Shown in pieces: positions 1 to 24,028 of a stretch of 64,000 nucleotides of DNA. This stretch comes from Bacteroidota bacterium. Lineage in GTDB: Bacteria; Bacteroidota; Ignavibacteria; Kryptoniales; JAKASW01. Position 1 is the first letter of the stretch, and each line of letters starts with the position of its first letter. The notes beneath the pieces were generated by a model, which was not told the origin of the DNA, made no database searches, and saw only the letters and a list, made by a program, of their open reading frames with translations. The stretch covers positions 1-64,000 of the forward strand of contig JAKAGT010000003.1 of assembly GCA_021825585.1 (NCBI GenBank), given 5' to 3'. A program made the translations under genes and the position numbers.

Positions 1-423
1 AAAGCCCTGAACATGATGAACTTCGAGGTAGGACTTAGCCTCCCGATCTTCTTCGGCGCGAGACAGCAGAAGATGATAGACGAGGCGGACTTCATGCAGC
101 GGGCTTCCGAAGAGCAATATGGCACAGCCAAACTTGGATTGTACAGCGAGCTGCGCTCCACTTACGCCGACGCCGAGGCACAGTCGAAATTGATCCCGCT
201 CTATACGAAAGAATTGATTCCCCAGTATGAGGCAACGTATAACTCTTCGCTCTCCTCGTACTCGGTGGGCAAAACTTCATTTGCAATGCTTATTGACAAT
301 CTCACGACACTAATAAACACCAAAATAGAGCTAACAAAAATAGAATCAGCGTATTTCTCCGCTTCCGCTCAGATTTCAAAGCTGGTCGGAGAAAATTCTG
401 AAGATTATAGAGGTGTGAAATGA
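1..423 (+). CDS. TolC/CusC-like outer membrane efflux protein, C-terminal part
   Basis: Only the C-terminal ~140 residues are in the window; the reading frame is open to base 1, so the true start lies upstream. The segment is helical and carries the pattern of the outer-membrane-factor family: a strand-like stretch (EVGLSLPIFFGARQ) followed by long amphipathic helices and a conserved S-Y-x-x-G-K-T-S-F turn near 'SSYSVGKTSFAMLIDNL'. Outer membrane factors form the trimeric exit duct for RND pumps. The stop codon overlaps the ATG of the next gene (adaptor) by 4 bp, and the RND pump follows, so the three genes form one efflux operon. The family assignment is firm from context and pattern; the metal substrate is inferred from the neighbours. 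Confidence 0.82.
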   Translation, partial: KALNMMNFEVGLSLPIFFGARQQKMIDEADFMQRASEEQYGTAKLGLYSELRSTYADAEAQSKLIPLYTKELIPQYEATYNSSLSSYSVGKTSFAMLIDNLTTLINTKIELTKIESAYFSASAQISKLVGENSEDYRGVK

Positions 424-1943
424 GGAAGACAATTTTAATCATCATCCCGTTATTCCTGGCAGCGCTGATTCTTGGAGGCTGCGGCAAGGCAACAAAGACC
501 GCTGGCACCAATGCAGATTCGACTGCGGCCGCGAGCAAGGGAGAGAGAAAAGTCCTTTACTGGTACGACCCGATGAACCCCACGGTTCATTTCGACCATC
601 CCGGCAAATCCCCGACGATGGATATGGATCTGGTACCGATGTACGCTGATGAAGGAGAGAGCGGCCAGGACGTCATTAGGATCGATCCTGCGATGATTCA
701 GAACATCGGTGTTGTTACAGCGCCGGTGGAACGCAGAAGACTCATCCGGACCATCAATACTTACGGAGTCGTTGTACCGGACGAGAAGAGCATCAGCGAC
801 ATAAACACGCGTGTCAGCGGATGGATCGACCGGCTCTATTTCGACTACACCGGTATGGAAGTGAGAAAAGGGGAGCCCATGGCTGTGATTTACAGCCCCG
901 AGCTCATAGCTGCCGAGCAGGAGTTCCTGCAGGCAGTCAGCTTCGCTTCCGTCAGCGGTAATACCGTCACTTCTTCGAACACGCTAATTAACAGCGCTCG
1001 CGAACGTCTACGATTCTTCGGGATGAGTGACGGTGAAATAGATAAGTTGCAATCGACGGGAAAAGTAATCGACAGGGTCACAATCTATTCTCCGAGCGAC
1101 GGCGTCATCCTTGAAAAGGATGTATTCGAGGGACAGAAGATATCTGAGGGACAGTCTTTGTTCAAGGTTGCAGACCTCTATCATGTCTGGATTCTTGCGG
1201 ATGTGTTTAAGATAGATATGCCGTTCCTGAAACTCGGCTCTCCGGCGACTGTCACCTACAGCAATTCCGAATCGTACAACGGGCGTGTCGATTTTGTGTA
1301 TCCGGAAGTCGATGTGACCGCGAGAAGCGTCAAGGTGAGAATTCCGCTGAACAATCCCGGCCTGGTGATGAAGGTCGGACAGTATGTCAATGTCGCAATT
1401 CATTCGCCTGTCAGTTACGACGCTATTGCGGTGCCTTCTCAGGCTGTGATCAATACCGGGCTTCGGCAGGTCGTTGCCGTTGCACTCGGCGGCGGTCGAT
1501 TTGAAATAAGGCAGGTGAAACTTGGCGCCTACGCGGGCGGATATTATGAAGTCACAGACGGACTCAACGTGGGCGACACGATAGTGACTTCCGGACAATT
1601 CCTCATCGACTCCGATGCGAATTTGAAATTTGCGGGTGCGGCAATGTCGAACATGCCCGGAATGTCGATGCCTCCTTCATCAGCAGCACCTGCTGAAGAG
1701 GACAACTCTTCTTCCATGGAGAATATGCCTACACCGGCGAAGAAGTCCGGAAGCGAGGACAAAGGTATAAATGTAGGCAACATGCCGGGAATGGATATGT
1801 CAGGCCACACCTCCCCTAATACGAAGAAGAAAGCAGTGAAGCCCAAGAAAGACACGATGGAAGGCATGGACATGAGCATGCCCGGTATGGACATGTCGCA
1901 CGACACGACCACTCACGGGTCTTCGACCGGACAGGAGCACTGA
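420..1943 (+). CDS. CusB-type heavy-metal RND efflux adaptor lipoprotein with Met-rich tail
   Basis: Periplasmic adaptor (membrane fusion protein) that links the RND pump to the outer membrane duct. An N-terminal lipoprotein signal ends in the lipobox L-G-G-C (Cys21). Residues ~45-77 form the heavy-metal-binding domain typical of CusB-like proteins (WYDPMNP, then PTMDMDLVPMYADE). The barrel-sandwich/lipoyl and beta-barrel parts follow (~105-400), including 'YSPELIAAEQEFL'. The last ~100 residues form a low-complexity tail with repeated MPGM, MDMS and His residues, a likely Cu(I)/Ag(I) ligand array. It starts 4 bp inside the upstream gene and ends 1 bp before the pump gene. Assignment to the Cu/Ag family is confident; the exact metal is inferred from the methionines. 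Confidence 0.93.
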   Translation: MRKTILIIIPLFLAALILGGCGKATKTAGTNADSTAAASKGERKVLYWYDPMNPTVHFDHPGKSPTMDMDLVPMYADEGESGQDVIRIDPAMIQNIGVVTAPVERRRLIRTINTYGVVVPDEKSISDINTRVSGWIDRLYFDYTGMEVRKGEPMAVIYSPELIAAEQEFLQAVSFASVSGNTVTSSNTLINSARERLRFFGMSDGEIDKLQSTGKVIDRVTIYSPSDGVILEKDVFEGQKISEGQSLFKVADLYHVWILADVFKIDMPFLKLGSPATVTYSNSESYNGRVDFVYPEVDVTARSVKVRIPLNNPGLVMKVGQYVNVAIHSPVSYDAIAVPSQAVINTGLRQVVAVALGGGRFEIRQVKLGAYAGGYYEVTDGLNVGDTIVTSGQFLIDSDANLKFAGAAMSNMPGMSMPPSSAAPAEEDNSSSMENMPTPAKKSGSEDKGINVGNMPGMDMSGHTSPNTKKKAVKPKKDTMEGMDMSMPGMDMSHDTTTHGSSTGQEH

Positions 1944-10362: not shown

Positions 10363-12249
10363 ATGACTTGCACGGTTAGTGTGATCAAAGACCATTCGAG
10401 TACACCTAGATTCACTGAGGTAAGTGAAGACCTTTTCGTGCAACACAACGGTCCACGCTACCGGACACCCATTGATCTCCAACTGACCCCGGATCAACCG
10501 TTGCGATTTCTGGTCGTTGGAGGTTGCCTTGCACAGCCGTTTCCTGAGGTCGCCTCGATTATCAATCCTGAATTCAGCGGTGACTTTATTCTGCTTAACA
10601 ATTTCGACCCCTTTCCTGAAATTCCGCAGGAAACAATATCGCGATACGATTTTCAGATCATCCACCTCCCTCTGCGATCTATCTTGGGAAATGCGTACTT
10701 CCAACTGCCGGATGACGTCGAGAGCCACGAAGAATTCCTGGCACAGACTCAGGATTACCTTGCCCGCTATTTGGCCAACGTCATGAAGTTGAACACGGAA
10801 TACAAGCTCTTGACATTCGTGCTCGGATTTATGGTACCACAGCAGAATCCGCTGGGGCGATTGCAGCCGCGATACGATCTCCGCAACATCATGTACTTCA
10901 TGGAACGGCTTAACATGTTCCTGGCTTCCGAGGTTGGCAGGAGAGAAAACGCGTACTTTGTGGACGTCGACCAGATTTCAAGCGGCATTGGCAAGAAAGC
11001 CGTCCAGGACGACGGGGTGTGGTCATTTTCACATGGGACGACGTTGAGCGACGGCGACCACGACCACGACCTGAACCGCCTCGAGCCGCCCCCCCCGATG
11101 CAGCATCATTATTCCGCCCGCTGGGTCGAATTTTTCGAGGCGCTGCTTTATGAGATCTTTGCAATGCATCGTACACTCAAACAACAGGATATCGTTAAGT
11201 TGGTCGCTGTTGATCTCGATGATACTTTGTGGCGCGGAGTAGCAGCTGACGGAACGCTGGGAGCCATCGAGGGGTGGCCCATGGGATTCATGGAGACGCT
11301 TCTCTATCTAAAAAAGCGCGGCATTCTGCTGGCGATCGTCAGCAAGAACGACGAACAATTCATCCGAGGAAAGTGGAATGATATAGTCCAGGGCCAGATC
11401 GCTCTTTCGGATTTTGCAATTCACAGGATCAATTTTTGCAGCAAGGTGGAGAACCTCGCCGAAATTATTCGGGAAGTGAACATCCTTCCGAAGAATGTTG
11501 TAATGATTGACGACAACCCCGTGGAACGCGCATTGATTCAGGCAGGAATGCCGGACGTGCGCGTATTGGGAAGTCATCTTTACTATTTGAAAAGAATTCT
11601 TCTCTGGGCCTCGGAGACCCAACAACCGATAATCACGCGGGAATCCAGTCGGAAAACCGAGATGGTGCAGGCTCAATTGGAGCGTGAATCTGTCCGCAGG
11701 AAACTGTCGCACGAAGAGTTCCTCCAATCCCTCCATCTTCATGTGGCTGTGTCGATCCTTCATGATACCAGTGACGTGCATATGGGCCGGGCTCTTGAAC
11801 TGTTCAACAAAACCAACCAGTTCAACACCAGAAGCGAGCGCTACACATTGGAGCAATGCCAAAGGAACTTTGCCGCCGGCGAGCGTCTCTATGTCCTGCA
11901 GGCGGAGGATCGCTTCACGCAATACGGATTGATCGGCGCGGCATGGGTGAATGGAAACCGTATCGAACACATGGTGATGAGTTGTCGAGCTCTCGGCTTG
12001 AACATCGAGGAATCCTTCATGGCCTTTCTGGCAAGCCAGCTTGTCCTGGAAAATGAATCGACAATGGAGGGGATATTGCTACTTACCGACGCGAACATTG
12101 CCTGTCGGCAGCTTTTCGCCAATAACGGGTTTGAGAACACGACGGACAACCCATCAATCTGGTCGCGACAGCTTGCAGCACCATTTCCTTTCCCGACTCA
12201 CATCTCCTTCACGGCGCCCGGCATAAAGGAAAACGTTGTTCTTCTCTAA
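10363..12249 (+). CDS. HAD-IIIC family phosphatase / FkbH-like protein
   Basis: A 628-residue protein with an N-terminal SGNH-like region (~40-270), a HAD-IIIC catalytic core and a C-terminal acyltransferase-like extension. The HAD nucleophile motif is 'AVDLDDTLWRGV' with Asp near 283, followed by 'AIVSKNDEQF' (motif II) and 'NVVMIDDNPVERALI' (motif IV). FkbH-type proteins load a glyceryl unit onto an acyl carrier protein in polyketide pathways or act in surface-glycan modification. No PKS gene is nearby, so the role is open. It is a single plus-strand gene converging on the giant minus-strand gene; the ~180 bp between them shows no clear terminator. Confidence 0.85.
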   Translation: MTCTVSVIKDHSSTPRFTEVSEDLFVQHNGPRYRTPIDLQLTPDQPLRFLVVGGCLAQPFPEVASIINPEFSGDFILLNNFDPFPEIPQETISRYDFQIIHLPLRSILGNAYFQLPDDVESHEEFLAQTQDYLARYLANVMKLNTEYKLLTFVLGFMVPQQNPLGRLQPRYDLRNIMYFMERLNMFLASEVGRRENAYFVDVDQISSGIGKKAVQDDGVWSFSHGTTLSDGDHDHDLNRLEPPPPMQHHYSARWVEFFEALLYEIFAMHRTLKQQDIVKLVAVDLDDTLWRGVAADGTLGAIEGWPMGFMETLLYLKKRGILLAIVSKNDEQFIRGKWNDIVQGQIALSDFAIHRINFCSKVENLAEIIREVNILPKNVVMIDDNPVERALIQAGMPDVRVLGSHLYYLKRILLWASETQQPIITRESSRKTEMVQAQLERESVRRKLSHEEFLQSLHLHVAVSILHDTSDVHMGRALELFNKTNQFNTRSERYTLEQCQRNFAAGERLYVLQAEDRFTQYGLIGAAWVNGNRIEHMVMSCRALGLNIEESFMAFLASQLVLENESTMEGILLLTDANIACRQLFANNGFENTTDNPSIWSRQLAAPFPFPTHISFTAPGIKENVVLL

Positions 12250-12429: not shown

Positions 12430-15400
12430 CTATCCGTTTTCGCCTGTCAACTTGGCGATTTGTATCAGGTAAAATCTCAGAAGGTCCTGCTGTTTCGGCT
12501 CCAGCGCCTGCTCCTCAATTTTAATTATTGTCTCGACTTCTCTGAGCGCACGGATTATGTTCACCGGCACTTCAACCATCGATTTCGATATCGTGGTCAA
12601 ATAGTCGAGGGAAGCCGAAAGAAATTCCTGCATGCTGTCGTTAAGATTGGGCGCCGCTAACTGAGGCGGTATCTTTATTCTCTTCGGGCTGAACAAATAC
12701 TCCTTCTGCAATTCGGACGACGACAATGAATTAAGAGCGGTCGCAAGCTCAGAGAAGCTCGCAACCCGTTGGAATACCGGCTTCTCAAGAAGCTGCCAGA
12801 TCTTTGTCCTCAAGGAGCCAACCTCCACCGGTACTTTCAATAACTTCTCGACCTCTTCCAGCCATTTGGCACTTATGCCCGGACCTATTTGTGATTGAAG
12901 CCAATCGGTATCCGTATTGAAGAAATTCTGCTGGAGCAGGACCGCGACATCGGGTCTCACAGTCGGAAGGAGTTGCGGTATGAAGGCGTCGCCGGTGAAA
13001 AACTCGGACACGTCGAGTCCGTGCCTCCGCAGCAATTCCTTTTGAAAGAGCGGCAGGTACTTTTTCATTAGATCGATATCTTCTCGCAGCGCAGTCAGGG
13101 CGGAATTGCCGGGAGGGAAGGCCTTTTCCAGCCTGTCGATGTAAGTCAGATCAGCGTCATGGTAAACCCGCAGGGTGTGGAGCATTTCGTACACAGGAAG
13201 GCGGGGAAGTACCTGGTCGGCAATTAGAGTGAGAGGCTCACCTTCCGTGAATTCCATTTGGGAGAAATTGTCGAGGGCGCGGAAGAGTCCGGCAGTCAGC
13301 TGGTTTATGCCGAGGACCACCGTCTGTGCCTGATTATGGGAAATTGCGCGAAGCAGGCTGCCGTACTTGGAAAGCGGGATAGTACCGGCAATCCTCTGAA
13401 TTATCTCTTCGCCTGCACCTTGTCCCGCTTCTTGTCCCGGCCGGGCTGTGGGCCGGTCCCTGAGAGGAGGCGTCGTTCTCCCGATGAAGTAGGAGATGAT
13501 GTGAATGCCTATAATATCTTCCTCTCTGCCGTAGAGTATCTGCCTGAAATTGTCCCTGTGAATCTCCAGGAATTTATCGAAAATCTTGTCGTGCCTGCCG
13601 ATCGTAAGCCGTTCAAGTTCCTGCAGGCCGCGGGTTCTGAATTGGAGTCTTGTTTCGGAGAGCGGTTCGCTTGCCCTGAACGCCTCGCTTTCGTAGAAAT
13701 CCTGTGCCTTCCGGATATGGTGTATAAGCTGAGACAGCTCTTCCACAGGGAGCTGGCGGCATTTTTCAAACAGGTTGCTCTGGAATGTTCTCAGGTCGCC
13801 GGATGCGAAGACTCCCATGAGTGGAGTCGTCGCGTAGAAAGTGCTGCGCCGCGTAGAGGCCTGAAGGTAGTTTGAGAATCTTCGGGCAGAGTCGTCGTCG
13901 TCGACGAACAGCCGTTTTCCGGATACGGGCGAGTAGTATCCGCCCTGTCGCTGCATGGGCTCGCCGCTGCCCAGTTTCATTCTGAGCTTGCCGATAAGTC
14001 CGTGCGAACTCAGCCATGTCAGCAATTCATACTTTGACTCGAGGTAAAGGGTCATTCCCATCGCCTGACCGACTTGCTGGCTCAGGTCCGATCCGGCTAC
14101 GAAGATTTCCGTTATTATTTCGGAGAACCTGTCGCTGGTCTCCTGGTTCATCCTCCTGCTCTGAAACGCGTAATCCCACACCTTATTGAGATAGTTCTTG
14201 ATTCCCTTCACTGATTCGATGTCCTCGAACAAAGGGACGATCCAGACGTTGGGGATTTCACTATCGCTTCTCTCGCGGAGAATCTCTTCGCGCTTCGAAC
14301 GCAGTTTCCGTTCCAGCGAAATCAAGGCTTCGGGCTTCGTGGTCATGCTGACTTGCAGGGCGAGCACCAGACCGGGATTGCCGTATTTGCCCGACAGCTC
14401 GTTTATCTCATTGATATTGTGGACAGTCGTGTCGATGGCGAATTGATCCTGCGCCGTGACGAGTTTCTGGTGAATGCGTGGAGTGACCACGAACCGCTTC
14501 AGCAAATCCCGGAATTGACTTGCTTCAAGCAGGAGGTCCGGATTCGACAGGTTCTCTACGACCCTGGGAATCAGCGAATGGATGGTCTTTCTCAGCTGCT
14601 TGTTCAGCGAAAAGTAATACTCCAGCGTATCTCTCCGTCTCTTGCGAAGATCGAGCATCTCCCGTTCAAGATGATCGTTGTGCTGCCACAGGGATGTCAA
14701 CGGGTCTTTTGCTACGTGGAGCTTCATCCCTACATTTCGAAATTTCCCCGGTCGCATGTTGACAGGGAGCGTGCCGCGATATCTCTTCTCGAGTTGATGA
14801 GTAAGCCGCGTGATCGTCGAAAGCAAGGCCGAGAATTTCTTGTTGTTATCAGGGAGCTTTTCGATTTCGGTCAGCAGCCGTTCGTCGATCCGGACGTCTG
14901 AATCGGATTTCAGCAGCAACTGGATTATTCGTGCCTGACGAGCCACATTCTCGATCAGAACTGCGCCTGCGAGGCTGTGTCCCTGTCCGGAAGGCCTGTT
15001 GCTGCCGTCCCAATCTCCCCAGAAGGAAAGAAAGGTCTCATATTGGCCGTCAGAATGAAGGCTGAGATAATTCTCGACGGCGATCATGGTACCCAGATCA
15101 AGCAGCAATTCATCGGGCTCCTGGCTCGACACAATGGGAACGTTCAACCCGAAATATTCCCTGACGAGTTCGGTCCCCAGGTTTCTATAGAACCGGTCGG
15201 CGATTTCTTTCTTGTGAAAGACTGCGTCCGTGAGCTTCTCGAACAGCAGCTCAGTCTGCAAAGAGTACATCTGGGTCGGATGTACGGTGCGGTCGAAGAG
15301 TCTCTTACGGAATGCTTCCTTCCGTCTTGACAAATCGTCTTTATAGAATTCCTTTTCCAGAAGTTCTTTCGCAGCCGGGTCGCCGGAGAGATACAGGTTG

Positions 15401-18021
15401 GCCTTCTCATTTATTATTCTCTGCCGATCTTCGAGTCTCGTCCTGAAGACGGCTAACCGGGAAGGGAGAAAATCCTCATCGATCCTTCTCCTGTGAAGTT
15501 CGTCGTCCGCCTGCAGGTCGAATCTACGTATAAACTCTCTTACCAGATTGCCAGTGTTCGCACGAATAGCGGACTCAATTTCTCTCCACCGGTCTGTGCC
15601 GTCAATAATGTTGACCTGTCTTCGATGGTTAAGCTCTCTGTGTTGGAAGTGCCTTCGATTATAATTGGCCGCTTCTTCCGCAATCATCCTGTTCAGATCA
15701 ATTAGAACGCGCCTCGTCTTCTTTACAAGGGTCACGGCATCGTCGGTTCCGCCGAGCGTCAGGCGGAAAGACTTTCTTCCGGTATCGAAACCGCGTTCGG
15801 TACGCGCGAATGTCGATAGCGGGACTAATCCGACACCCTGCCTGGCCAGCCCCGACGCCAACCAGTCGAGTGAGAGGCCCGCAGGGAGATTGTTAATAAT
15901 CATCCTGGGGTACATGCTCCCGACAGGCGGGTCTATCCTGATGTCGAATTGGTTCCGCTCCCTGGGCAAATGTTCGGTGGCATCAAGAAGCGCATCGCTT
16001 CTCGATTTGAATATCCGGTTTCTCAGGCGATAGTATGCATTTACGTTCTCTACTCTGTTCCGGTAAAAGAGGTAAGCGAGGCTAATGGCGCCGACATTCG
16101 GTTCCAAAGCGGAAATCAGGGAGGAGAACCTGGCGAACAGGTCCTTTTGCCTTATTTCAACGACCGATAGCCGCGCACCGGCGAATGAATCTGTTTTCGA
16201 CATGGAATGAACCGTAATGACACGGTCGGACTCTTCTTCGGTAATGTAGCCTGAACGGACGAGGTCATCCGTTGTTTGCCGAATCGTCGGTATCTGTTCC
16301 AATGTTTCGGACGGTTTGACGTTTTGATACGAAAGGTCGTCGATAACGTAGATATTCCGATCGAGGAGCCACTTTATCAGCTCGACAATGTCCGCATGGT
16401 TGAAAATTTGTCCCGTTGCATTGTGAGGGTTATTTATTACAACCGCCCCGTATTTCGACCAATCCGGGTCAGATGCCAGACGCGTTTGGACTGCGCCGAT
16501 AATTGCTTCCACATCGAGTTGATAATCCTCCGTTAAGGCGACGGGGAAGACTTTCGGGACACAATGTTCATACGTCCAGCTCAGGTCGGGGATTACGACT
16601 TCTCTTATCCCGCAATGAAAACCGAGCAGGCTAAGTACTGTCCGCGATGAGCCGCTGGCTACAAGCGAGCACTCCGGCCTGTACTCGGGATGATGATTGA
16701 GGAACGAGCTCAGATAGCTGCGGCTGAGTTCACCTGTCCAGTTCCTGTCATGAATGTTTCTGCCCATTTCCTCAACGAGGCCGACTGCATCGAGGGTCTG
16801 AAACCTGTCGACTTCGGCACGTTCCGCGTGACGCAGGACCGATGCAAGATGCATGTTGACATCGTTTCCAAAGTTCGTGACCGCGCTTTCGATGAGGCGA
16901 CTTCCGTTTTCCACGATTTTCTCGAGCCTGTCCTCGACATGCGACACGATCCTTCCGACGGATTGAAGCGCGGGCACTCCCGCCATCCCTTCGTACTCGG
17001 CCTCCAGGCTTATGTCGTTTTGAGACGCTTCCTTGGCCGGTGGATTAGCCAGCAGATATCCGAGGAGTTCGATCTCCGTTGACGAGGGTGTACCCTTCAG
17101 CTGGAAATGAACCGTCTCAATCACCTGCAGGAAATCCGAATTGCCGGCGAGGAATGTAACGGACAGGTTCTTCAGTCGGGGATCCAACACCGCGGGTGTG
17201 ATAAACCTGAGAACCCGGTTCATCATCTTGGCTTCGCGGGAGAGTGAAAGATGGTTTGGAGCGTCATTGGCTTCGATGAACATCAGGGGACTCGTGAGGC
17301 TCATCTGCCGCAGCTGGCGTCTCGATTCCTCCGACACTACTTCACCCATCAGCAGGAACGCAGGAGATGACTGGTCAGAATCGAGATATCCGGCCAGTTG
17401 ATGAACCATGAGTGATTCGTCATTGTCAAGTGTGACTAACCTGATGTCGGGGAAATCCCGCAGGAAATGGGGTATGTCGATTCCGAAAAGATAGATCGTG
17501 ACAGGGCGAAGTGCCATGAAATCGGACAAAGAATGAAACAGCACCCGGAGTGCTTCAAGTATCCCACCCGAAGCGAGTATGATCTCACGCTTTCCTGTCT
17601 TTTCACCGAGGTCATAAGAGAGAGGTTCCTGCTGTTCTTTTGACAGCCAATCGTTGAAGCGCTGTACCACAGGATGCGGTTTCGATTTCAGGAAGCCGCC
17701 GCGCGGTGAGTACGGCGCGCTTCTTTTGACAAGCTCGGCGAGGAAGGAGACTTTAGTCTTGTCTTCGGATGACAAACCCAGGTACTCGACGATCTCGTCA
17801 AGATTGTCGATGCCTAACTGCTCGCTCGACACATCGATTCCCAGCGCAAGGCGGAGATATGCGGAGTACAGGCGAACATCCTGGACCGGATTACCAATAT
17901 GAAAATTTACGCGTTCCTCCGGAGGGACGGGCGACATCGCGGTGGATTCGCTTATCTCGGAAACCTTTGCCGCACGTATCGGTCTTAACTCGAAGAGTTC
18001 TAACGGATCTTTATCTGCCAA
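12430..18021 (-). CDS. Giant fusion: tandem aminotransferase-like regions plus PEP-carboxylase-like C-terminal region
   Basis: 1,863 residues from TTG 18021. Residues ~140-340 resemble a fold-type I aminotransferase without its lysine. Residues ~400-810 are an intact class I/II aminotransferase: 'INNPHNATGQ' (~529), 'VIDDLSYQN' and 'HSMSKTDSFAGARLSV' with PLP lysine 609. From ~830 to the end, motifs follow the order of PEP carboxylase: 'RTVHPTQ' (His914; family TAHPTE), 'FWGDWDGSNRP' (~1000; family WIGGDRDGNP), 'IVPLFEDIE' (~1262), 'AGSDLSQQVGQ' (~1310; family GYSDSNKDGG), 'GSGEPMQRQGG' (~1350; family HGRGGSVGRGG), ending ..TGENG (family ..RNTG). The catalytic His is kept but several other active-site positions are changed. 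Joint function (oxaloacetate to aspartate, or a regulatory role) is inference. It follows the SPFH gene by 27 bp. Confidence 0.8.
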   Translation of the reverse strand: MADKDPLELFELRPIRAAKVSEISESTAMSPVPPEERVNFHIGNPVQDVRLYSAYLRLALGIDVSSEQLGIDNLDEIVEYLGLSSEDKTKVSFLAELVKRSAPYSPRGGFLKSKPHPVVQRFNDWLSKEQQEPLSYDLGEKTGKREIILASGGILEALRVLFHSLSDFMALRPVTIYLFGIDIPHFLRDFPDIRLVTLDNDESLMVHQLAGYLDSDQSSPAFLLMGEVVSEESRRQLRQMSLTSPLMFIEANDAPNHLSLSREAKMMNRVLRFITPAVLDPRLKNLSVTFLAGNSDFLQVIETVHFQLKGTPSSTEIELLGYLLANPPAKEASQNDISLEAEYEGMAGVPALQSVGRIVSHVEDRLEKIVENGSRLIESAVTNFGNDVNMHLASVLRHAERAEVDRFQTLDAVGLVEEMGRNIHDRNWTGELSRSYLSSFLNHHPEYRPECSLVASGSSRTVLSLLGFHCGIREVVIPDLSWTYEHCVPKVFPVALTEDYQLDVEAIIGAVQTRLASDPDWSKYGAVVINNPHNATGQIFNHADIVELIKWLLDRNIYVIDDLSYQNVKPSETLEQIPTIRQTTDDLVRSGYITEEESDRVITVHSMSKTDSFAGARLSVVEIRQKDLFARFSSLISALEPNVGAISLAYLFYRNRVENVNAYYRLRNRIFKSRSDALLDATEHLPRERNQFDIRIDPPVGSMYPRMIINNLPAGLSLDWLASGLARQGVGLVPLSTFARTERGFDTGRKSFRLTLGGTDDAVTLVKKTRRVLIDLNRMIAEEAANYNRRHFQHRELNHRRQVNIIDGTDRWREIESAIRANTGNLVREFIRRFDLQADDELHRRRIDEDFLPSRLAVFRTRLEDRQRIINEKANLYLSGDPAAKELLEKEFYKDDLSRRKEAFRKRLFDRTVHPTQMYSLQTELLFEKLTDAVFHKKEIADRFYRNLGTELVREYFGLNVPIVSSQEPDELLLDLGTMIAVENYLSLHSDGQYETFLSFWGDWDGSNRPSGQGHSLAGAVLIENVARQARIIQLLLKSDSDVRIDERLLTEIEKLPDNNKKFSALLSTITRLTHQLEKRYRGTLPVNMRPGKFRNVGMKLHVAKDPLTSLWQHNDHLEREMLDLRKRRRDTLEYYFSLNKQLRKTIHSLIPRVVENLSNPDLLLEASQFRDLLKRFVVTPRIHQKLVTAQDQFAIDTTVHNINEINELSGKYGNPGLVLALQVSMTTKPEALISLERKLRSKREEILRERSDSEIPNVWIVPLFEDIESVKGIKNYLNKVWDYAFQSRRMNQETSDRFSEIITEIFVAGSDLSQQVGQAMGMTLYLESKYELLTWLSSHGLIGKLRMKLGSGEPMQRQGGYYSPVSGKRLFVDDDDSARRFSNYLQASTRRSTFYATTPLMGVFASGDLRTFQSNLFEKCRQLPVEELSQLIHHIRKAQDFYESEAFRASEPLSETRLQFRTRGLQELERLTIGRHDKIFDKFLEIHRDNFRQILYGREEDIIGIHIISYFIGRTTPPLRDRPTARPGQEAGQGAGEEIIQRIAGTIPLSKYGSLLRAISHNQAQTVVLGINQLTAGLFRALDNFSQMEFTEGEPLTLIADQVLPRLPVYEMLHTLRVYHDADLTYIDRLEKAFPPGNSALTALREDIDLMKKYLPLFQKELLRRHGLDVSEFFTGDAFIPQLLPTVRPDVAVLLQQNFFNTDTDWLQSQIGPGISAKWLEEVEKLLKVPVEVGSLRTKIWQLLEKPVFQRVASFSELATALNSLSSSELQKEYLFSPKRIKIPPQLAAPNLNDSMQEFLSASLDYLTTISKSMVEVPVNIIRALREVETIIKIEEQALEPKQQDLLRFYLIQIAKLTGENG

Positions 18022-18048: not shown

Positions 18049-19017
18049 TTACTTCTCCTTGGACTTCCGCGTGCCGGTGGCAAGAGAGTTCTGAAGAAGA
18101 GTCTGTAATGTGTTTATAAGCTCGGAACCTGGCGACATGTCTTTCGACGAAAGCGAAACGACCGTCTTCGCATTCCGCAAGGCCTGACTCGCCTCCGCCA
18201 GCCGCGCGGCCTGAGGGGTGAGTATGAGAAGCTCAGGGTTGTTCTTCAAGAGTTCCAGCTCCTGTCTCTCATATTCCAGCTGCATATTCTTCCGCTTCAA
18301 CTCTTCCTCAACGCGCTTCTTCGATATATCGGCTTCCTTCTCGACCTCGGCTCTCTTCAAATCGTACTTCTTAAGCTCCAGCTGGTTCTCAAGCAGCGCT
18401 ATCTGTTCATCGGCCTGGAACCTCGATTTAGCGGCGGCGATTCTTCCTTTTTGGTTCAGCGCTTCCGTCTGCTCGAGAATTCTGGCAGACTCCTGCTGGC
18501 GAATCGCGTCTGCGATCCTGGCGTCGAGAATTTCCAGCGACTGCACCGCTATCGAAATCATTTCCAATCCGAACTTATCTCTGCTGACTCGGATCTTATC
18601 GTTCAGGTAATCGTAAATCTTCTCAGAAGACAATTCCTCGATCTCGAACTTCTCGGTGAACTCGCGAACGAAACTGTGAACGACAGTTTCCAATTCATTT
18701 GCGGCTTTCTCGACCGCGGATTTATTCCATCCACCGACTTTGATCAATGTCTCGAGGTTATTCAGGGACAACGCTACGGACATGGCCACACGGACCTTGA
18801 CATCCAGGTTGCCCTTCGCACTGGCATCGATGCTAATCTGTGAGGAGTGGACCGTCCTCGGCAATTCAAGGCTGAAATGACGCGGATAAAATCTTCCTTT
18901 TCTCAACGCAATCTTGCCGTCCGACTCATACAACGCAATCTGGTCCGGCCTTCTCAACCTGTATTCGTAAACCAAATACAACACTAAGAGAATGAGTACT
19001 CCGACTAAAACATACAT
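18049..19017 (-). CDS. SPFH/band-7 domain membrane protein
   Basis: A 322-residue protein with one N-terminal transmembrane helix (residues ~1-18), a short basic segment, then an SPFH/band-7 domain (~25-175, with strand-rich 'SSQISIDASAKGNLDVKVRV' and 'DKFGLEMISIAVQSLEILDA'). A long charged coiled coil (~175-260) and a short C-terminal region follow. This is the prohibitin/stomatin/flotillin layout: membrane-anchored oligomeric scaffolds. AGGAG eight bases before the ATG gives a firm start. It is the first gene of a minus-strand pair with the giant aminotransferase/PEPC-like gene 27 bp downstream, so the two are probably co-transcribed. The functional link between them is unknown. Confidence 0.88.
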   Translation of the reverse strand: MYVLVGVLILLVLYLVYEYRLRRPDQIALYESDGKIALRKGRFYPRHFSLELPRTVHSSQISIDASAKGNLDVKVRVAMSVALSLNNLETLIKVGGWNKSAVEKAANELETVVHSFVREFTEKFEIEELSSEKIYDYLNDKIRVSRDKFGLEMISIAVQSLEILDARIADAIRQQESARILEQTEALNQKGRIAAAKSRFQADEQIALLENQLELKKYDLKRAEVEKEADISKKRVEEELKRKNMQLEYERQELELLKNNPELLILTPQAARLAEASQALRNAKTVVSLSSKDMSPGSELINTLQTLLQNSLATGTRKSKEK

Positions 19018-19582
19018 TTTTTCAACTCCTGGTAAACTTCATAGTTGCTTATTCACATGTTGATCTGCTGGTTCAGCCATCGTTCTGGGGCCGGCCCGGG
19101 CAGGTCTGTCACTCGTTTCGATATGAACGGATATTATTAAAGGTGCCGCCTCAGTGAATTGATGCTTTCAACGGCCAAAACCGCTCCATTTGAATGTAAC
19201 ATGTTTGATGGAAGTTACGCAATCTGTAAGTGCGTTTGTTGCTCATTTTCGCATAAAAGGGAAAGCAGAAGCAAATCATGGCAATTTTCGGAAGGGCAGG
19301 GTGTGGAGAGTGCAGCAACCGGCTTTCTTCGCGGGAAGGGGACATTAAGCGTGACCGGCCAAGATCGGGGATAGAATTTCGATTTAGCGATGAGGTAGCA
19401 CGGCTAATCAGAGACGCCGATCGACCTGGGCAGACGTCAAAGTGGCCGGAGGGATCGGTGTAGATTGCGGCATGGTACACAAACGCTGAGGCTGTTTTGG
19501 GAAATATTTCCTCGTCACTTCCATGGAACAGGATAAAAACCGCGTTTCCAGCGGCATATCGTTTGTATTTATAAATACAGGC
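19018..19582. promoter_or_regulatory. Divergent intergenic region with AT-rich palindromes before merR
   Basis: 565 bp between the SPFH gene (minus) and merR (plus) with no convincing gene. Two perfect palindromes occur near merR: GGAAATATTTCC (19500-19511) and GTATTTATAAATAC (19565-19578), the latter ending four bases before the chosen ATG. They are candidate operator or promoter elements for the merR-cytochrome operon. The rest shows nothing I can name. Confidence 0.4.
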
Positions 19583-20059
19583 ATGGAGTCACAAGATAAC
19601 GAAAAACCAATTTACGCCATCGGCGAAGTCGCAGGCAAGTTAGGCATCTCGGTCGAGACGATCCGACTATACGAGCGCCAGGGACTCATAATAATATCGA
19701 AGTCCGCAAAAGGCCAGCGTGTTTACTCGGAGAGTGACATAGAGCGCCTGACATGCATACGCACGGCCATCAACGAGCTGAAAATCTCCATCGAGGGGAT
19801 TCGCCGGATGCAGTCCATGGTTCCATGCTGGTCTCATATTCATTGTCCCGAGGATCAGAGGGAAGAATGTCCCGCATTCCTGCGGGCCAGCGGCGGATGC
19901 TGGACGTACAAACATGCCGAAAACGAATGTGCAGCGCTCGATTGCCGTTCGTGCAAGGTTTACCTGCTCTCCGGCACCTGCGAAAACATTAAAACTCTGA
20001 TCTACAAGGACATCTTACCACAACCAGGAAATCACAGACAACAGGAAGACGAGTTATGA
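19583..20059 (+). CDS. Cys-rich MerR family regulator
   Basis: About 158 residues from ATG 19583 (an in-frame ATG at 19523 would add 20). The N-terminal winged helix is typical of MerR: 'YAIGEVAGKLGISVETIRLY', 'ERQGLI', then 'GQRVYSESDIERLTCIRTA'. The C-terminal half carries eight cysteines instead of a known ligand domain, in the pattern C-x5-C-x7-C, then GGC, then C-x4-C-x2-C and GTC. This suggests a metal- or redox-sensing site, possibly an iron-sulfur cluster or zinc; that is inference. Its stop overlaps the ATG of the octaheme cytochrome gene by 4 bp, so it likely controls the sulfur/electron-transfer operon that follows. I prefer 19583 because family proteins begin just before the helix-turn-helix. 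Confidence 0.85.
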   Translation: MESQDNEKPIYAIGEVAGKLGISVETIRLYERQGLIIISKSAKGQRVYSESDIERLTCIRTAINELKISIEGIRRMQSMVPCWSHIHCPEDQREECPAFLRASGGCWTYKHAENECAALDCRSCKVYLLSGTCENIKTLIYKDILPQPGNHRQQEDEL

Positions 20060-21624
20060 GAAGAATCTTTCTTGCTCTATTCATTCTGGGAATTTTCGCG
20101 GTGATGGTCCCGACAGCACTCCACAAGAACAGCTCAGAGACTCCACCGCTCACGATGCTGAAAGAGCAATACGCAGCGAAGACTAAATCATCGGTAGACC
20201 ATTCATTGTTTCCAGAACTCAAAAAGAATTTCAATCGGCCGCAGGATGTGACGGCGGCATGCATTTCATGTCACAACGGTCGTGCACAGGAAGTCATGCA
20301 CTCCACGCACTGGCAGTGGGAGCGGACCGAGTATATCGCAGGCAAGGGTATCCGCAGCATCGGCAAGCGGAACATATTGAACAATTTCTGCATCGGCATC
20401 ACGAGCAACGAACCGAGCTGCACGCGCTGCCACGCAGGCTATGGTTACTCAGACACGAAGGCTTATTTCAGCGATTCCCTTGATGTCGATTGCCTCGCCT
20501 GCCATGACAACAGCGGCACATACGCGAAGATGAACGAAGGGGCCGGCATGCCCGACACTTCTGTCAACCTGAGCTATGTTGCACAGCACGTGGGGAAACC
20601 AACCCGCGCCAACTGCGGCACATGCCACTTTTTCGGCGGCGGCGGCAACAACGTGAAGCACGGCGACCTGGAGGAAGCCCTGTTCGATCCGGCACGCGAC
20701 GTCGATGTTCACATGGCGACCGACGGGATGAACATGCAATGCGTCGACTGCCATACCGCGCAGAAGCATCAGATGCTCGGGAAAATGTACTCGGTCTCGT
20801 CGATGAGCCGGAACCGCGTGCAATGTGAAACCTGCCACGGTTCCATGCCTCACAAGGATGACGTGCTGAACAACCACACTCTGAAGATCGCGTGCCAGAC
20901 CTGCCACATTCCCGAATATGCCAGGGTAAACCCGACGAAGCTCTTCTGGGATTGGTCGAAGGCCGGGAAGCTGAAGAATGGGAAGCCGTTCGAACTTAAA
21001 GATTCCAGCGGCACCGACGTCTACATGTCTATAAAAGGATCCTTCAAGTGGGGTAAGAATTTGAAGCCCGATTACCTGTGGTTCAACGGGACCGCCACTC
21101 ACTACCTCCTCGGTGACAAGTTCGACCCGTCGAAGCCTCTCGACGTTAACCGCCTCCTCGGAAGCTACGATGATCCCGACTCCAAAATCTACCCGGTGAA
21201 GATTCACCGCGCCGAACAGATATACGACACGAGATACGATTACCTGATCCAGCCGAAGCTTTACTCGGCGAAGAAGGGCGACGGAGGCTTCTGGGGAGAT
21301 TTCAACTGGGAGCGCTCCGCTGAAATAGGCATGAAGGCCGTTGGACTCCCGTACAGCGGACATTACGGATTCACCGAGACCAGGATGTACTGGCCGATAA
21401 ACCACATGGTTGCTTCGAAGGAGCAGGCCGTCAAATGCAACGAGTGCCACACCCGTAACGACGGGCGGCTGGCGGAAGTTGCCGGTTTCTACATGCCGGG
21501 CCGCGACTACAACCCATGGGTCGAGAGATTCGGATTCGGACTGATGGCGCTGACGCTCGGCGGTGTGTTCATCCACGGCGGCGTGCGACTCGCCTTGAGC
21601 CGCAAACGGAAAAGGAGCGTCTGA
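20056..21624 (+). CDS. Octaheme c-type cytochrome, tetrathionate reductase family
   Basis: A 522-residue exported cytochrome with an N-terminal signal/anchor (residues ~1-22) and exactly eight CxxCH haem sites: Cys69, 122, 146, 187, 229, 257, 280 and 461. The fourth is followed by a Gly-rich stretch and 'NNVKHGDLEEALFDPARDVD', as in the Shewanella octaheme tetrathionate reductase (OTR) family. A C-terminal transmembrane helix ('GLMALTLGGVFIHGGV') anchors it, unlike soluble Shewanella OTR. Members reduce tetrathionate and can also reduce nitrite or hydroxylamine in vitro, so the physiological substrate is open. Co-transcription with a membrane cytochrome b and sulfur transporters favours a sulfur oxyanion. 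It starts in a 4-bp overlap with merR. Confidence 0.92.
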   Translation: MRRIFLALFILGIFAVMVPTALHKNSSETPPLTMLKEQYAAKTKSSVDHSLFPELKKNFNRPQDVTAACISCHNGRAQEVMHSTHWQWERTEYIAGKGIRSIGKRNILNNFCIGITSNEPSCTRCHAGYGYSDTKAYFSDSLDVDCLACHDNSGTYAKMNEGAGMPDTSVNLSYVAQHVGKPTRANCGTCHFFGGGGNNVKHGDLEEALFDPARDVDVHMATDGMNMQCVDCHTAQKHQMLGKMYSVSSMSRNRVQCETCHGSMPHKDDVLNNHTLKIACQTCHIPEYARVNPTKLFWDWSKAGKLKNGKPFELKDSSGTDVYMSIKGSFKWGKNLKPDYLWFNGTATHYLLGDKFDPSKPLDVNRLLGSYDDPDSKIYPVKIHRAEQIYDTRYDYLIQPKLYSAKKGDGGFWGDFNWERSAEIGMKAVGLPYSGHYGFTETRMYWPINHMVASKEQAVKCNECHTRNDGRLAEVAGFYMPGRDYNPWVERFGFGLMALTLGGVFIHGGVRLALSRKRKRSV

Positions 21625-21625
21625 C

Positions 21626-22309
21626 ATGACAAGGGAATATATCTATCACAGGTTTGAGCGGTTCTGGCACTGGGTGCAGGCCGCACTTATTATCTTCCTC
21701 GGCGTCACGGGATTTGAAATCCACGGCTTGTTCACATTCTTTGGCTACGAGCAGGCCGTGCAATATCACGAGATCGCTGCGTGGAGCTTCATCATACTGA
21801 TAGCCTTCGCGATCTTCTGGCACTTCACGAAGGGCGAATGGCGCCAGTATCTGCCGACATGGAAAAACGTGCGCGCGCAGGCCGAATATTATGTCTTCGG
21901 CATCTTCAGGAACGCGCCTCATCCGACAAAGAAGACCGTCCTGAGCAAGCTGAATCCGCTCCAGAAATTCGTCTATGCCGGACTCAAGGCGCTTATCATT
22001 CCGACTATGGTGATCACCGGACTCGTTTACATGTTCTACCGCTATCCGCAGAGGTACGAGGTGTTGAGCCTCAACATCGGCGGACTTCAGACGGTCGCAG
22101 TACTCCACACGATCGGCGCATTCCTTCTTGTATCATTCTTCGTGGCGCATCTGTATCTGATAACGACCGGCCATAAAGTGACCTCGAATCTCAAGGCAAT
22201 GATCACCGGATACGAAGAAATACCCGACAGTGAAGTGATGGCTGCGGTGGAAACCGTTCGGACAGGATCAAAAGAGACAGTGGGCGAAACTAAGGAGGTG
22301 AGTCGATGA
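21626..22309 (+). CDS. Membrane cytochrome b subunit (PhsC/FdnI-like)
   Basis: A 227-residue integral membrane protein with four main hydrophobic helices and conserved His residues positioned for two b haems: 'HRFERFWHWVQAALIIFL' in helix 1, 'YHEIAAWSFI' and 'AIFWHFTKGEW' around helix 2, then 'VLHTIGAFLLVSFFVAHLYL' in helix 4. This is the di-haem cytochrome b561/NarI-like family that passes quinol electrons to periplasmic reductases. It begins one base after the octaheme cytochrome stop and overlaps the next gene by 4 bp, so it is very likely the quinol-oxidising partner of the octaheme protein. Confidence 0.9.
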   Translation: MTREYIYHRFERFWHWVQAALIIFLGVTGFEIHGLFTFFGYEQAVQYHEIAAWSFIILIAFAIFWHFTKGEWRQYLPTWKNVRAQAEYYVFGIFRNAPHPTKKTVLSKLNPLQKFVYAGLKALIIPTMVITGLVYMFYRYPQRYEVLSLNIGGLQTVAVLHTIGAFLLVSFFVAHLYLITTGHKVTSNLKAMITGYEEIPDSEVMAAVETVRTGSKETVGETKEVSR

Positions 22310-22818
22310 ATATTAAATATATGAATCCATATCTCGCCGGATTCTTTCTGGGGCTCGTGCTTCTTGCTACGATCTTCCTTACGGGGCGAGGTCTCGGTGC
22401 GAGCGGAGCAGTCAAGGACCTCACGATTGCGATCTCCGATGCCGTCGCTCCAAGGCAAACCGAATCGAATCCGTTTTTCGGACAGTACGCCGGACCGGGC
22501 AAGGAGAATCCGCTGAAATCGTGGCTGGTCTTCGAAATCGTCGGAGTGCTCATCGGAGGTTTCATCTCAGGGTTGGTTTCGGACCGGCTAAAGGTCGTTA
22601 CCGAATCGGGTCCGAGAGTGAAGCCGAAGGCCAGGTGGGTTTTCGCGGCAATCGGGGGAGCGCTTTTCGGAATCGGCGCACAGTTCACGCGCGGCTGCAC
22701 GAGCGGCGCGGCACTGAGCGGCATGGCAGTCCTGTCCACGGCAGGCTTCATAGCGCTGCTTTCAATATTCGGCACCGGGTACCTCGTGGCGTACTTCGGC
22801 CGGAAACTTTGGATATGA
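22306..22818 (+). CDS. YeeE/YedE family sulfur transporter, half-length
   Basis: A 170-residue membrane protein with about four hydrophobic helices. The motif 'GAQFTRGCTSGAALSGMA' carries the conserved cysteine of YeeE/YedE (TsuA-like) proteins, which import thiosulfate or related sulfur compounds through Cys relays. At half the usual length it resembles the split two-protein form of the family, with the other half encoded immediately downstream. It overlaps the cytochrome b gene by 4 bp and is followed 16 bp later by the second YeeE gene. The pair presumably forms one transporter. Confidence 0.9.
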   Translation: MNIKYMNPYLAGFFLGLVLLATIFLTGRGLGASGAVKDLTIAISDAVAPRQTESNPFFGQYAGPGKENPLKSWLVFEIVGVLIGGFISGLVSDRLKVVTESGPRVKPKARWVFAAIGGALFGIGAQFTRGCTSGAALSGMAVLSTAGFIALLSIFGTGYLVAYFGRKLWI

Positions 22819-22834
22819 GAGGAGAGGTGTAATC

Positions 22835-24028
22835 ATGGGACCATTCGTACCTGATCTGATTTCGGATCAACTCAATCTCGTCGTCGCGCTCCTCCTCGGG
22901 ATCGCCTTCGGCTTCGTGCTCGAGCAGGCCGGATTCTCTTCGTCGAGGCGGCTGGCGGGCGTGTTCTACGGTTATGATTTCACGGTACTCCGTGTGTTCT
23001 TCACCGCGGCGGTAACAGCAATGAGCGGAGTCCTCATACTCGGACACTTCGGAATGCTGGACACCGATGTTATTTATGTGAACCCGACATGGCTCCTCCC
23101 CGGAATAGTGGGCGGCGTGATAATGGGAGTCGGGTTCATAATCGGAGGCTACTGCCCCGGCACGAGCGTGTGTGCGGCGGCGATAGGGAAAGTCGACGCA
23201 ATGTTCTTTGTCGGCGGCGGGCTGCTAGGAGTGTACGCATTCGGAGAGCTGTTTCCACTGTACGACAAGTTTTACACGTCCACGTCGCTCGGCCCGGTGA
23301 AGGTATTCGACTCCCTCGGGATGTCGCAGGGACTCTTCACGTTCCTCCTCATCGTCATGGCGGTCGCCGCGTTCGCGGTCACTACAATAATAGAGAAGCG
23401 CGTGGACAAGGAATCAGCTCCCTCGCTGCAGTTCAAACCGGTCAAGCACGCTGTAGTCGGGAGTTTCGCCGTCTTGCTCGGGGTAATATTCATATTCATG
23501 CCCGATCACAAGTCTGGCCTGATTGAGAGGGTGAGCGGCCAGGCATACGCTGCCGTGCACCCGGTGCAGAAGATGGACGCAGACGAACTCGCGTTCCGTA
23601 TTGTCGACCACGAGTCGAACATCAGGATTATCGACATCCGTTCGCCTTTGGACTTCGGTTTGCTTTCGCTTCCAGGTTCGTACAACGTCCAGCGAAACGA
23701 TCTCTTCGGGAAGGACTGGGTCGCGACGTTTTCACGGAGACACCTGAAGAAGGTGGTCGTAGGCGATAACGAAGAGGACGAACGTACGGCGTATTACCTC
23801 CTTCACGAGCTTGGATATGAGAACCTCGCGATTCTTCGCGGCGGAATGGGGGCGTTCAAGAGGACGATCCTCGATTCCAATGTGTTTGTCCCGACCGGCT
23901 CGCGGTGGGACGGAGACGTCAGGGATTTCCGGGTGAATGCTCGTACCACGATTCTCAAGATGATCGCCGAGGCAAAGAACAAGCCGGCGAAGGCGATCGT
24001 CAAAAGGAAAATCCAGGGGGGATGTTAG
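22835..24028 (+). CDS. YeeE/YedE sulfur transporter fused to a Cys-less rhodanese domain
   Basis: 397 residues. The N-terminal ~190 form the second YeeE/YedE half, with about five helices and the motif 'GGYCPGTSVCAAAIGKVDA' bearing the transport cysteines. After one more helix (~207-223), residues ~245-350 form a rhodanese-like domain ('IRIIDIRSPLDFGLLSLPG', later 'AYYLLHELGYENLAILRGGM'). The active-site loop reads 'VVVGDNEEDERTA', so the catalytic cysteine of normal rhodaneses is absent. The domain could bind sulfur carriers or regulate transport, but it should not be a sulfurtransferase. This is the last gene of the merR-cytochrome-transport operon; a strong terminator follows 22 bp later. 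Confidence 0.9.
   Translation: MGPFVPDLISDQLNLVVALLLGIAFGFVLEQAGFSSSRRLAGVFYGYDFTVLRVFFTAAVTAMSGVLILGHFGMLDTDVIYVNPTWLLPGIVGGVIMGVGFIIGGYCPGTSVCAAAIGKVDAMFFVGGGLLGVYAFGELFPLYDKFYTSTSLGPVKVFDSLGMSQGLFTFLLIVMAVAAFAVTTIIEKRVDKESAPSLQFKPVKHAVVGSFAVLLGVIFIFMPDHKSGLIERVSGQAYAAVHPVQKMDADELAFRIVDHESNIRIIDIRSPLDFGLLSLPGSYNVQRNDLFGKDWVATFSRRHLKKVVVGDNEEDERTAYYLLHELGYENLAILRGGMGAFKRTILDSNVFVPTGSRWDGDVRDFRVNARTTILKMIAEAKNKPAKAIVKRKIQGGC

Follow-up and report, generated by a model that had tools for sequence, protein, structure and literature searches.

What could an aminotransferase and a remote likeness of phosphoenolpyruvate carboxylase (PEPC) do together in a single polypeptide chain? This is the question raised by one giant gene of the window, as we call the whole stretch of 64,000 nucleotides, from a genome of the class Ignavibacteria, that was analysed here. 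PEPC fixes bicarbonate onto phosphoenolpyruvate (PEP) and is one of the chief routes by which inorganic carbon enters metabolism. Two types, distant in sequence, have been described, the bacterial/plant and the archaeal, the latter compact, free-standing and of about 55-60 kDa (PMC8100219). A preliminary description of the window, made from the letters alone, had proposed an ORF of 1,863 residues at 12430-18021 in which an intact aminotransferase precedes a region with altered PEPC motifs. The ORF is present, and we add that it lies on the minus strand; what it encodes looks like an aminotransferase joined to a distant third branch of PEPC. Its parts are the following.

12430-18021, minus strand: giant fusion protein, 1,863 residues, TTG start, stop codon at 12430-12432; full-length relatives are known
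17632-18021, minus strand: residues 1-130, N-terminal segment of the aminotransferase (PDB aminotransferases align over 4..781 of the model; inner boundary placed by inference)
17032-17604, minus strand: residues ~140-330, inserted alpha/beta domain with seven predicted strands (DSSP strand order)
16810-16959, minus strand: residues ~355-404, long helical linker, partly of low model confidence and poorly conserved
15664-16809, minus strand: residues 405-786, large and small domains of a class I/II aminotransferase (PF00155, fold search)
16195-16197, minus strand: Lys609, the PLP Schiff-base lysine, invariant in the alignment
12433-15624, minus strand: residues 800-1863, PEPC-like region, predicted TIM barrel with helices and a PEPC-like C-terminus (profile comparison, predicted fold)

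A frame of this length invites the suspicion of an accidental read-through or of an assembly artefact, and both were rejected, since dozens of genomes keep the frame open and its dN/dS is far below 1. About 60 relatives have the same architecture. They occur in 55 of 391 genomes (29 of 190 genera) sampled from the Ignavibacteria, in 12 of the 40 genomes of a Calditrichota sample and in 3 of the 297 of an Acidobacteriota sample, the full-length proteins of these groups being ~40-76% identical to that of the window. Within the window's own genus the gene is found in five genomes (G000, G004, G009, G011 and G012) and is missing from eight others. The frame is almost always one ORF of ~1,800-1,960 codons; shorter versions mostly appear cut by contig ends or by single frameshifts at differing places. 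Thus the frame is broken once, each time at another position, in the draft genomes G110 (locus L063), G400, G808, G890, G896 and G902, and we consider such single breaks to be sequencing errors or sporadic decay. In the close pair G009/G012 dN/dS is ~0.04-0.15 across the protein; residues 1-345 have 0.11, the aminotransferase and the PEPC core 0.07 each and the C-terminal part 0.04, so that every part is under purifying selection. An anti-phage system was also considered and rejected, PADLOC giving no match.

In a Pfam search of the giant only the aminotransferase is recognised (PF00155, residues 443-762, E=8e-15), with 55.3 bits against a cut-off of 19.7, and the same family is found in all 28 relatives searched. 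N534, D562, Y565, K609, R617 and R753, which we take to stand at the positions of N194, D222, Y225, K258, R266 and R386 of aspartate aminotransferase (AspAT), are invariant across the aligned relatives, so that the intact PLP site around Lys609, already proposed in the preliminary description, is there in full. The giant has the full catalytic set in common with class I/II aminotransferases (PF00155; LysN 2egy, AspAT, ACC synthase), including Lys609 and the substrate-binding Arg753. No substrate-specific family can be assigned, since the best NCBIfam match, GntC, reaches 37 bits where the cut-off would require 415; the AspAT family models score far below their cut-offs. The model of residues 1-800 (pLDDT 86.8) aligns with PDB aminotransferases from residues ~4-37 to ~781 over ~330-390 residues at Z ~29-32 (with 2egy 2..395, for example, 377 residues of the range 4..781 at Z 31.9), these alignments giving the first and last aligned residues only, so that the inner boundary of the insert is our own placement. 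Such a span suggests that, in the model, the N-terminal segment belongs with the large domain to one aminotransferase, the two being separated by an inserted domain of ~300 residues that class I/II aminotransferases lack. Residues 1-404 are thus the N-terminal segment of the aminotransferase followed by the inserted domain, which corrects the preliminary description, where the insert at ~140-330 did not appear. The seven strands predicted for this insert follow an order like that of the large domain of aminotransferases, with no lysine at the PLP position. Since a profile comparison of the insert with the aminotransferase part gives nothing (score 16.6, a value reached by 33 of 60 shuffles), it is from the model that we infer a degenerate large domain, that is, a pseudo-aminotransferase.

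The remainder of the chain raises the more difficult question of whether it is related to PEPC at all. Against the curated cut-offs of every PEPC family in Pfam and NCBIfam (PF00311/PRK00009 and PF14010/TIGR02751 included) the window protein falls below; a genome-level PF00311/PRK00009 match to one giant was likewise under cut-off, and no giant was listed above the archaeal-type cut-off (PF14010/TIGR02751). Weak and consistent matches are nevertheless found below these thresholds: PF00311, PF14010, PRK00009 and TIGR02751 each match one or two relatives, at E ~7e-5 to 8e-3, and single relatives are matched unaided by PF00311 (7e-4), PRK00009 (2.5e-4) and TIGR02751 (4e-4). In the other direction, a profile of 12 relatives matches, unaided, a canonical PEPC of another genome (L042, E=1.6e-5). 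The profile-to-profile check that had been proposed for this region places homology above chance: the giant scores 45.8 (E=4.3e-4) when compared with 14 aligned bacterial PEPCs, whereas 60 column shuffles reach 30.0 at most, the reversed profile 20.7 and unrelated families 21-23. A forced full-length alignment of the profiles sets TVHPTQ against TAHPTE and LRAI against LRAI by itself, and a search of 177,635 PDB sequences with the profile of the core has as its best match the archaeal-type PEPC 3odm (E=0.016), with TPRI set against TPRI.

The predicted fold agrees with this. The AlphaFold2 model of residues 800-1863 (pLDDT 81.5, pTM 0.83) has 41 PDB matches at E<1e-3, every one of them a PEPC. 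In VIA-align it reaches Z 18.6 with the archaeal-type 3odm (3.6 A, 480 residues) and Z ~14-17 with plant PEPCs and with E. coli 1jqn over almost the whole length (11.4 with 1fiy), the next fold after PEPC being malate synthase at Z 11.1. The absence of a PEPC barrel from this half, named beforehand as what would overturn the proposal, is not what the model displays: it has the PEPC TIM-barrel, with strands predicted at ~909-912, 998-1003, 1177-1184, 1221-1225, 1260-1265, 1305-1308 and 1346-1350, together with PEPC-type helical additions, and the motifs are predicted to sit on these strands or at their C-terminal ends. We can therefore discard chance resemblance of motifs, on the strength of the profile comparison, the shuffles and the fold; as judged from profiles and model, residues ~800-1863 are a true homologue of PEPC, whose predicted structure is nearest to the archaeal type, a closeness of which the preliminary description made no mention.

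The residues of this half that bear on its activity lie as follows.

15271-15288, minus strand: TVHPTQ 912-917 with the catalytic His914; invariant, aligned to TAHPTE
15004-15021, minus strand: WGDWDG 1001-1006 (PEPC GGDRDG); invariant
14473-14484, minus strand: TPRI 1180-1183 with Arg1182; aligned to TPRI of the archaeal PEPC 3odm
14221-14235, minus strand: PLFED 1263-1267 with the putative metal ligand Glu1266 (conservation, profile alignment)
14086-14094, minus strand: GSD 1310-1312 with the putative metal ligand Asp1312; Q1315 at the place of K546 (conservation, profile alignment)
13939-13971, minus strand: GSGEPMQRQGG 1351-1361 with Arg1358; S1352 at the place of R581 (conservation, profile alignment)
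13450-13461, minus strand: RDRP 1521-1524 (PEPC GSRP; archaeal KNRDR); approximate alignment
13342-13356, minus strand: LLRAI 1556-1560 (PEPC LRAI; archaeal PRAI); conservation, forced profile alignment

The four motifs of the preliminary description thus stand in the order it gave (TVHPTQ 912-917, FWGDWDG 1000-1006, SDLSQQVG 1311-1318, GSGEPMQRQGG 1351-1361), and the chain does end in the PEPC-like LTGENG. H914, R1182, E1266, D1312, R1521, R1523 and R1558 are invariant in 30 relatives, the catalytic histidine having been kept as had been supposed, and R1358 is present in at least 90% of them. By alignment H914, E1266, D1312 and R1358 correspond to H138, E506, D543 and R587 of the E. coli enzyme, and R1558 to the arginine of its LRAI; R1182 may be R396, and R1521 or R1523 may be R713. 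Of these equivalences that of R587 comes from the profile alignment, that of R1182 from the TPRI of the archaeal type, and R1521 and R1523 are aligned only approximately. What has changed is also clear: the glutamate of TAHPTE and the arginine of GGDRDG are replaced by invariant residues proper to the family, and Q1315 and S1352 stand where we take bacterial PEPC to have its active-site residues K546 and R581.

How much these replacements mean depends on which PEPC is taken as reference. Among 40 Calditrichota genomes, where PEPC is otherwise of the bacterial type or the giant, a single full-length archaeal-type enzyme was found (L121:142-1599, genome G769, E=2.3e-191); its motifs read MSTQHPDN, WDCEGK, LRVPN, PLFED, ARSDPAANYG, GVGSAPFRGN, PSRRKR and LPRAI. 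An archaeal-type PEPC was also sought on plasmids for comparison, and none was found. L121, like 3odm, is without K546 and R581. The earlier statement that key lysine and arginine positions differ is correct for those that stand at K546 and R581, yet both are also missing from archaeal-type PEPC, so that their replacement alone is no argument for a different chemistry; several of the altered positions follow from closeness to the archaeal type, and the step from altered motifs to altered chemistry is weaker than it looked. The archaeal type (PF14010/TIGR02751; 3odm; L121) resembles the giant in its barrel fold and in the motifs TPRI, PLFED/PLVED, SD, the arginine of FRG/QRQ, NRDR/RDR and RAI, but it is a stand-alone protein of ~490-560 residues, whereas the PEPC part of the giant has ~1,060, is fused to an aminotransferase, carries PEPC-like extra helices and C-terminus, and misses the PF14010 cut-off. 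The bacterial/plant type (PF00311; E. coli 1fiy/1jqn; the window's own enzyme at 56500-59271) shares with it the size class, alignment to the C-terminal end, the histidine, the metal-binding glutamate and aspartate, R587 and the GSRP-like and LRAI motifs; it differs in that identity in structural alignments is ~12-16%, in K546 and R581, in GGDRDGNP, which becomes GDWDGSNRP in the giant, and in the absence of a fusion. By alignment, residues common to both types are kept and mostly invariant, which makes the giant look like a third branch of PEPC rather than a ruined one.

Two other readings of this pocket must be weighed here. The PEPC-like part may be an active enzyme with a new chemistry on another substrate, which for example carboxylates, decarboxylates or cleaves at a C-C bond some other enol or oxo-acid and, coupled to the aminotransferase, serves the making or degradation of an unusual amino acid or of a membrane-linked compound. 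The invariant or nearly invariant Gln and Ser in place of K546 and R581, the Gln of TVHPTQ and the Trp of WGDWDG, a set of invariant motifs proper to the family (DRTVHPTQ, WGDWDGS.RPSGQG, GSDL.Q, GEPMQRQGG), the great sequence distance from both PEPC types and an aminotransferase in no known substrate family all speak for it; the retention, by alignment, of what bacterial and archaeal PEPC have in common, and the lack of two of the replaced residues in the archaeal type itself, speak against, and we hold this main rival to be a serious possibility, on balance doubtful. That the region is a non-catalytic sensor or scaffold, binding for instance PEP or aspartate and regulating the aminotransferase or the assembly of its partner, seems to us improbable: the large helical additions, the loss of some residues of bacterial PEPC and an obligate scaffold partner are what it would predict, but a dead pocket is expected to drift, whereas across the three phyla the metal ligands and the catalytic histidine and arginines vary hardly or not at all, and few regions of the protein are better conserved than the barrel core.

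The window also encodes the ordinary enzyme.

56500-59271, plus strand: ordinary bacterial-type PEPC (ppc), 923 residues; a yardstick outside the module

Its presence there had been noted correctly, and so had the view that the giant is no replacement for it: of 80 genomes, drafts among which may miss genes, 37 carry the giant and 9 of these have a canonical PEPC, against 12 of the 43 non-carriers. With no association the replacement hypothesis is ruled out, and there is no dependence either. The same figures leave 28 of the 37 carriers without a recognisable canonical ppc, a fact not in the preliminary description. Because carriers often keep ppc and non-carriers often lack it, comparative genomics gives no proof that the giant supplies oxaloacetate, and this lack of a link with ppc also accords with the new-chemistry reading. 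As a side observation, G738, G751, G771 and several Bacteroidota genomes have PEPCs of ~850-890 residues whose match to PF00311 is split into two pieces; these are, from their sequences, a divergent bacterial-type subgroup.

The immediate neighbour of the giant, which the preliminary description had not reported, is a scaffold gene.

18049-19017, minus strand: SPFH/band-7 partner, 322 residues, PF01145 over cut-off, 27 nt upstream of the giant

As read from the alignment, this protein has an N-terminal hydrophobic segment and, beside its SPFH domain, a coiled coil; the hydrophobic segment is followed by Arg-rich sequence, which suggests that the SPFH domain faces the cytoplasm. Among 31 giant loci examined, the gene stands directly upstream on the same strand in 28 of the 28 with upstream sequence, two loci apparently without it (L055 and L058) being gene-calling errors where tblastn recovered it, and no other neighbour is widely common to these loci. 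A profile of the subfamily matches 36 of 37 carrier genomes and 0 of 43 non-carriers; in the sole exception, G753, the frame of the giant reaches the contig end. Against PDB sequences the same profile has no match at E<=0.1. Residues ~261-289 of the window's SPFH protein (PELL.LTPQAARLAEASQ..NA.TVVSLS) form an almost invariant C-terminal motif of the subfamily, at which the giant may dock. Adjacent genes can be inherited together, and the association is known from genes alone, so that the SPFH gene could have been passed on with the giant merely as its neighbour, the giant itself being a bifunctional enzyme of the usual cytosolic kind; but same-strand adjacency is complete while all other neighbours vary, and the co-occurrence holds across three phyla, which leaves very little room for this explanation. 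The two genes form a conserved module with strict pairing. Elsewhere around it, the window encodes an FkbH-domain HAD protein at 10363-12249 on the plus strand (TIGR01686, E=6.9e-54), convergent with the giant and not conserved beside it in other genomes. At 19523-24028, also on the plus strand, we read from the sequence a MerR-like regulator, a large multi-CxxCH protein resembling multihaem cytochrome c, a membrane protein that resembles cytochrome b and a pair of YeeE/YedE-like membrane proteins, of which the second has a rhodanese-like domain at its C-terminus.

Our preferred reading, tentative and held at somewhat short of an even chance, is that of a membrane-scaffolded bifunctional enzyme which turns PEP into oxaloacetate, or a close oxo-acid, and this into aspartate or a relative. 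The PEPC-like half would bind a divalent metal through Glu1266 and Asp1312; with His914 and the arginines common to both PEPC types it would probably carboxylate PEP, or a very close enol, to oxaloacetate. The fused aminotransferase would then take over the oxo-acid and, through Lys609, aminate it to aspartate or a close relative with a donor such as glutamate, while the SPFH protein would form oligomers at the membrane and keep the giant in place there. We count against PEPC activity that no family cut-off is reached, that the TAHPTE glutamate and the GGDRDG arginine are replaced and that the R396 and R713 equivalences come purely from alignment, and against amination of oxaloacetate that the aminotransferase matches no substrate-specific family. 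The boldest version of this proposal, that a third PEPC class exists only as the C-terminal half of an SPFH-scaffolded 'aspartate synthase', making aspartate from PEP and bicarbonate in one chain held by a dedicated SPFH ring or cage, we regard as rather unlikely; no free-standing gene of this PEPC branch was found.

The folds themselves are known. The searched open literature holds no description of this PEPC branch, which stays below family cut-offs, of its fusion or of its partnership with an SPFH gene, and there is a real chance that a third class of PEPC is at hand. A 2009 survey of prokaryotic SPFH proteins distinguished 12 subfamilies and described operons with NfeD-type partners (PMC2636767); the words 'aminotransferase' and 'carboxylase' are absent from it. 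The present module resembles those operons in its two genes and in the hydrophobic N-terminal segment, SPFH domain and coiled coil of one product, but the partner is a metabolic giant and not NfeD. Given the strict pairing, three or more bacterial phyla would seem to possess a membrane-linked enzyme system that is as yet undescribed. A third branch of PEPC that keeps the common set of residues would separate the indispensable residues of the active site from those peculiar to one lineage, and through the fusion with an aminotransferase a single chain would link the assimilation of carbon to that of nitrogen. For most SPFH subfamilies it has yet to be learnt what the scaffold holds, and the strict pairing makes of this one a clean and testable case for the cargo of a bacterial SPFH scaffold; if the boldest version of our reading is true, an SPFH assembly would here be devoted to a metabolic enzyme.
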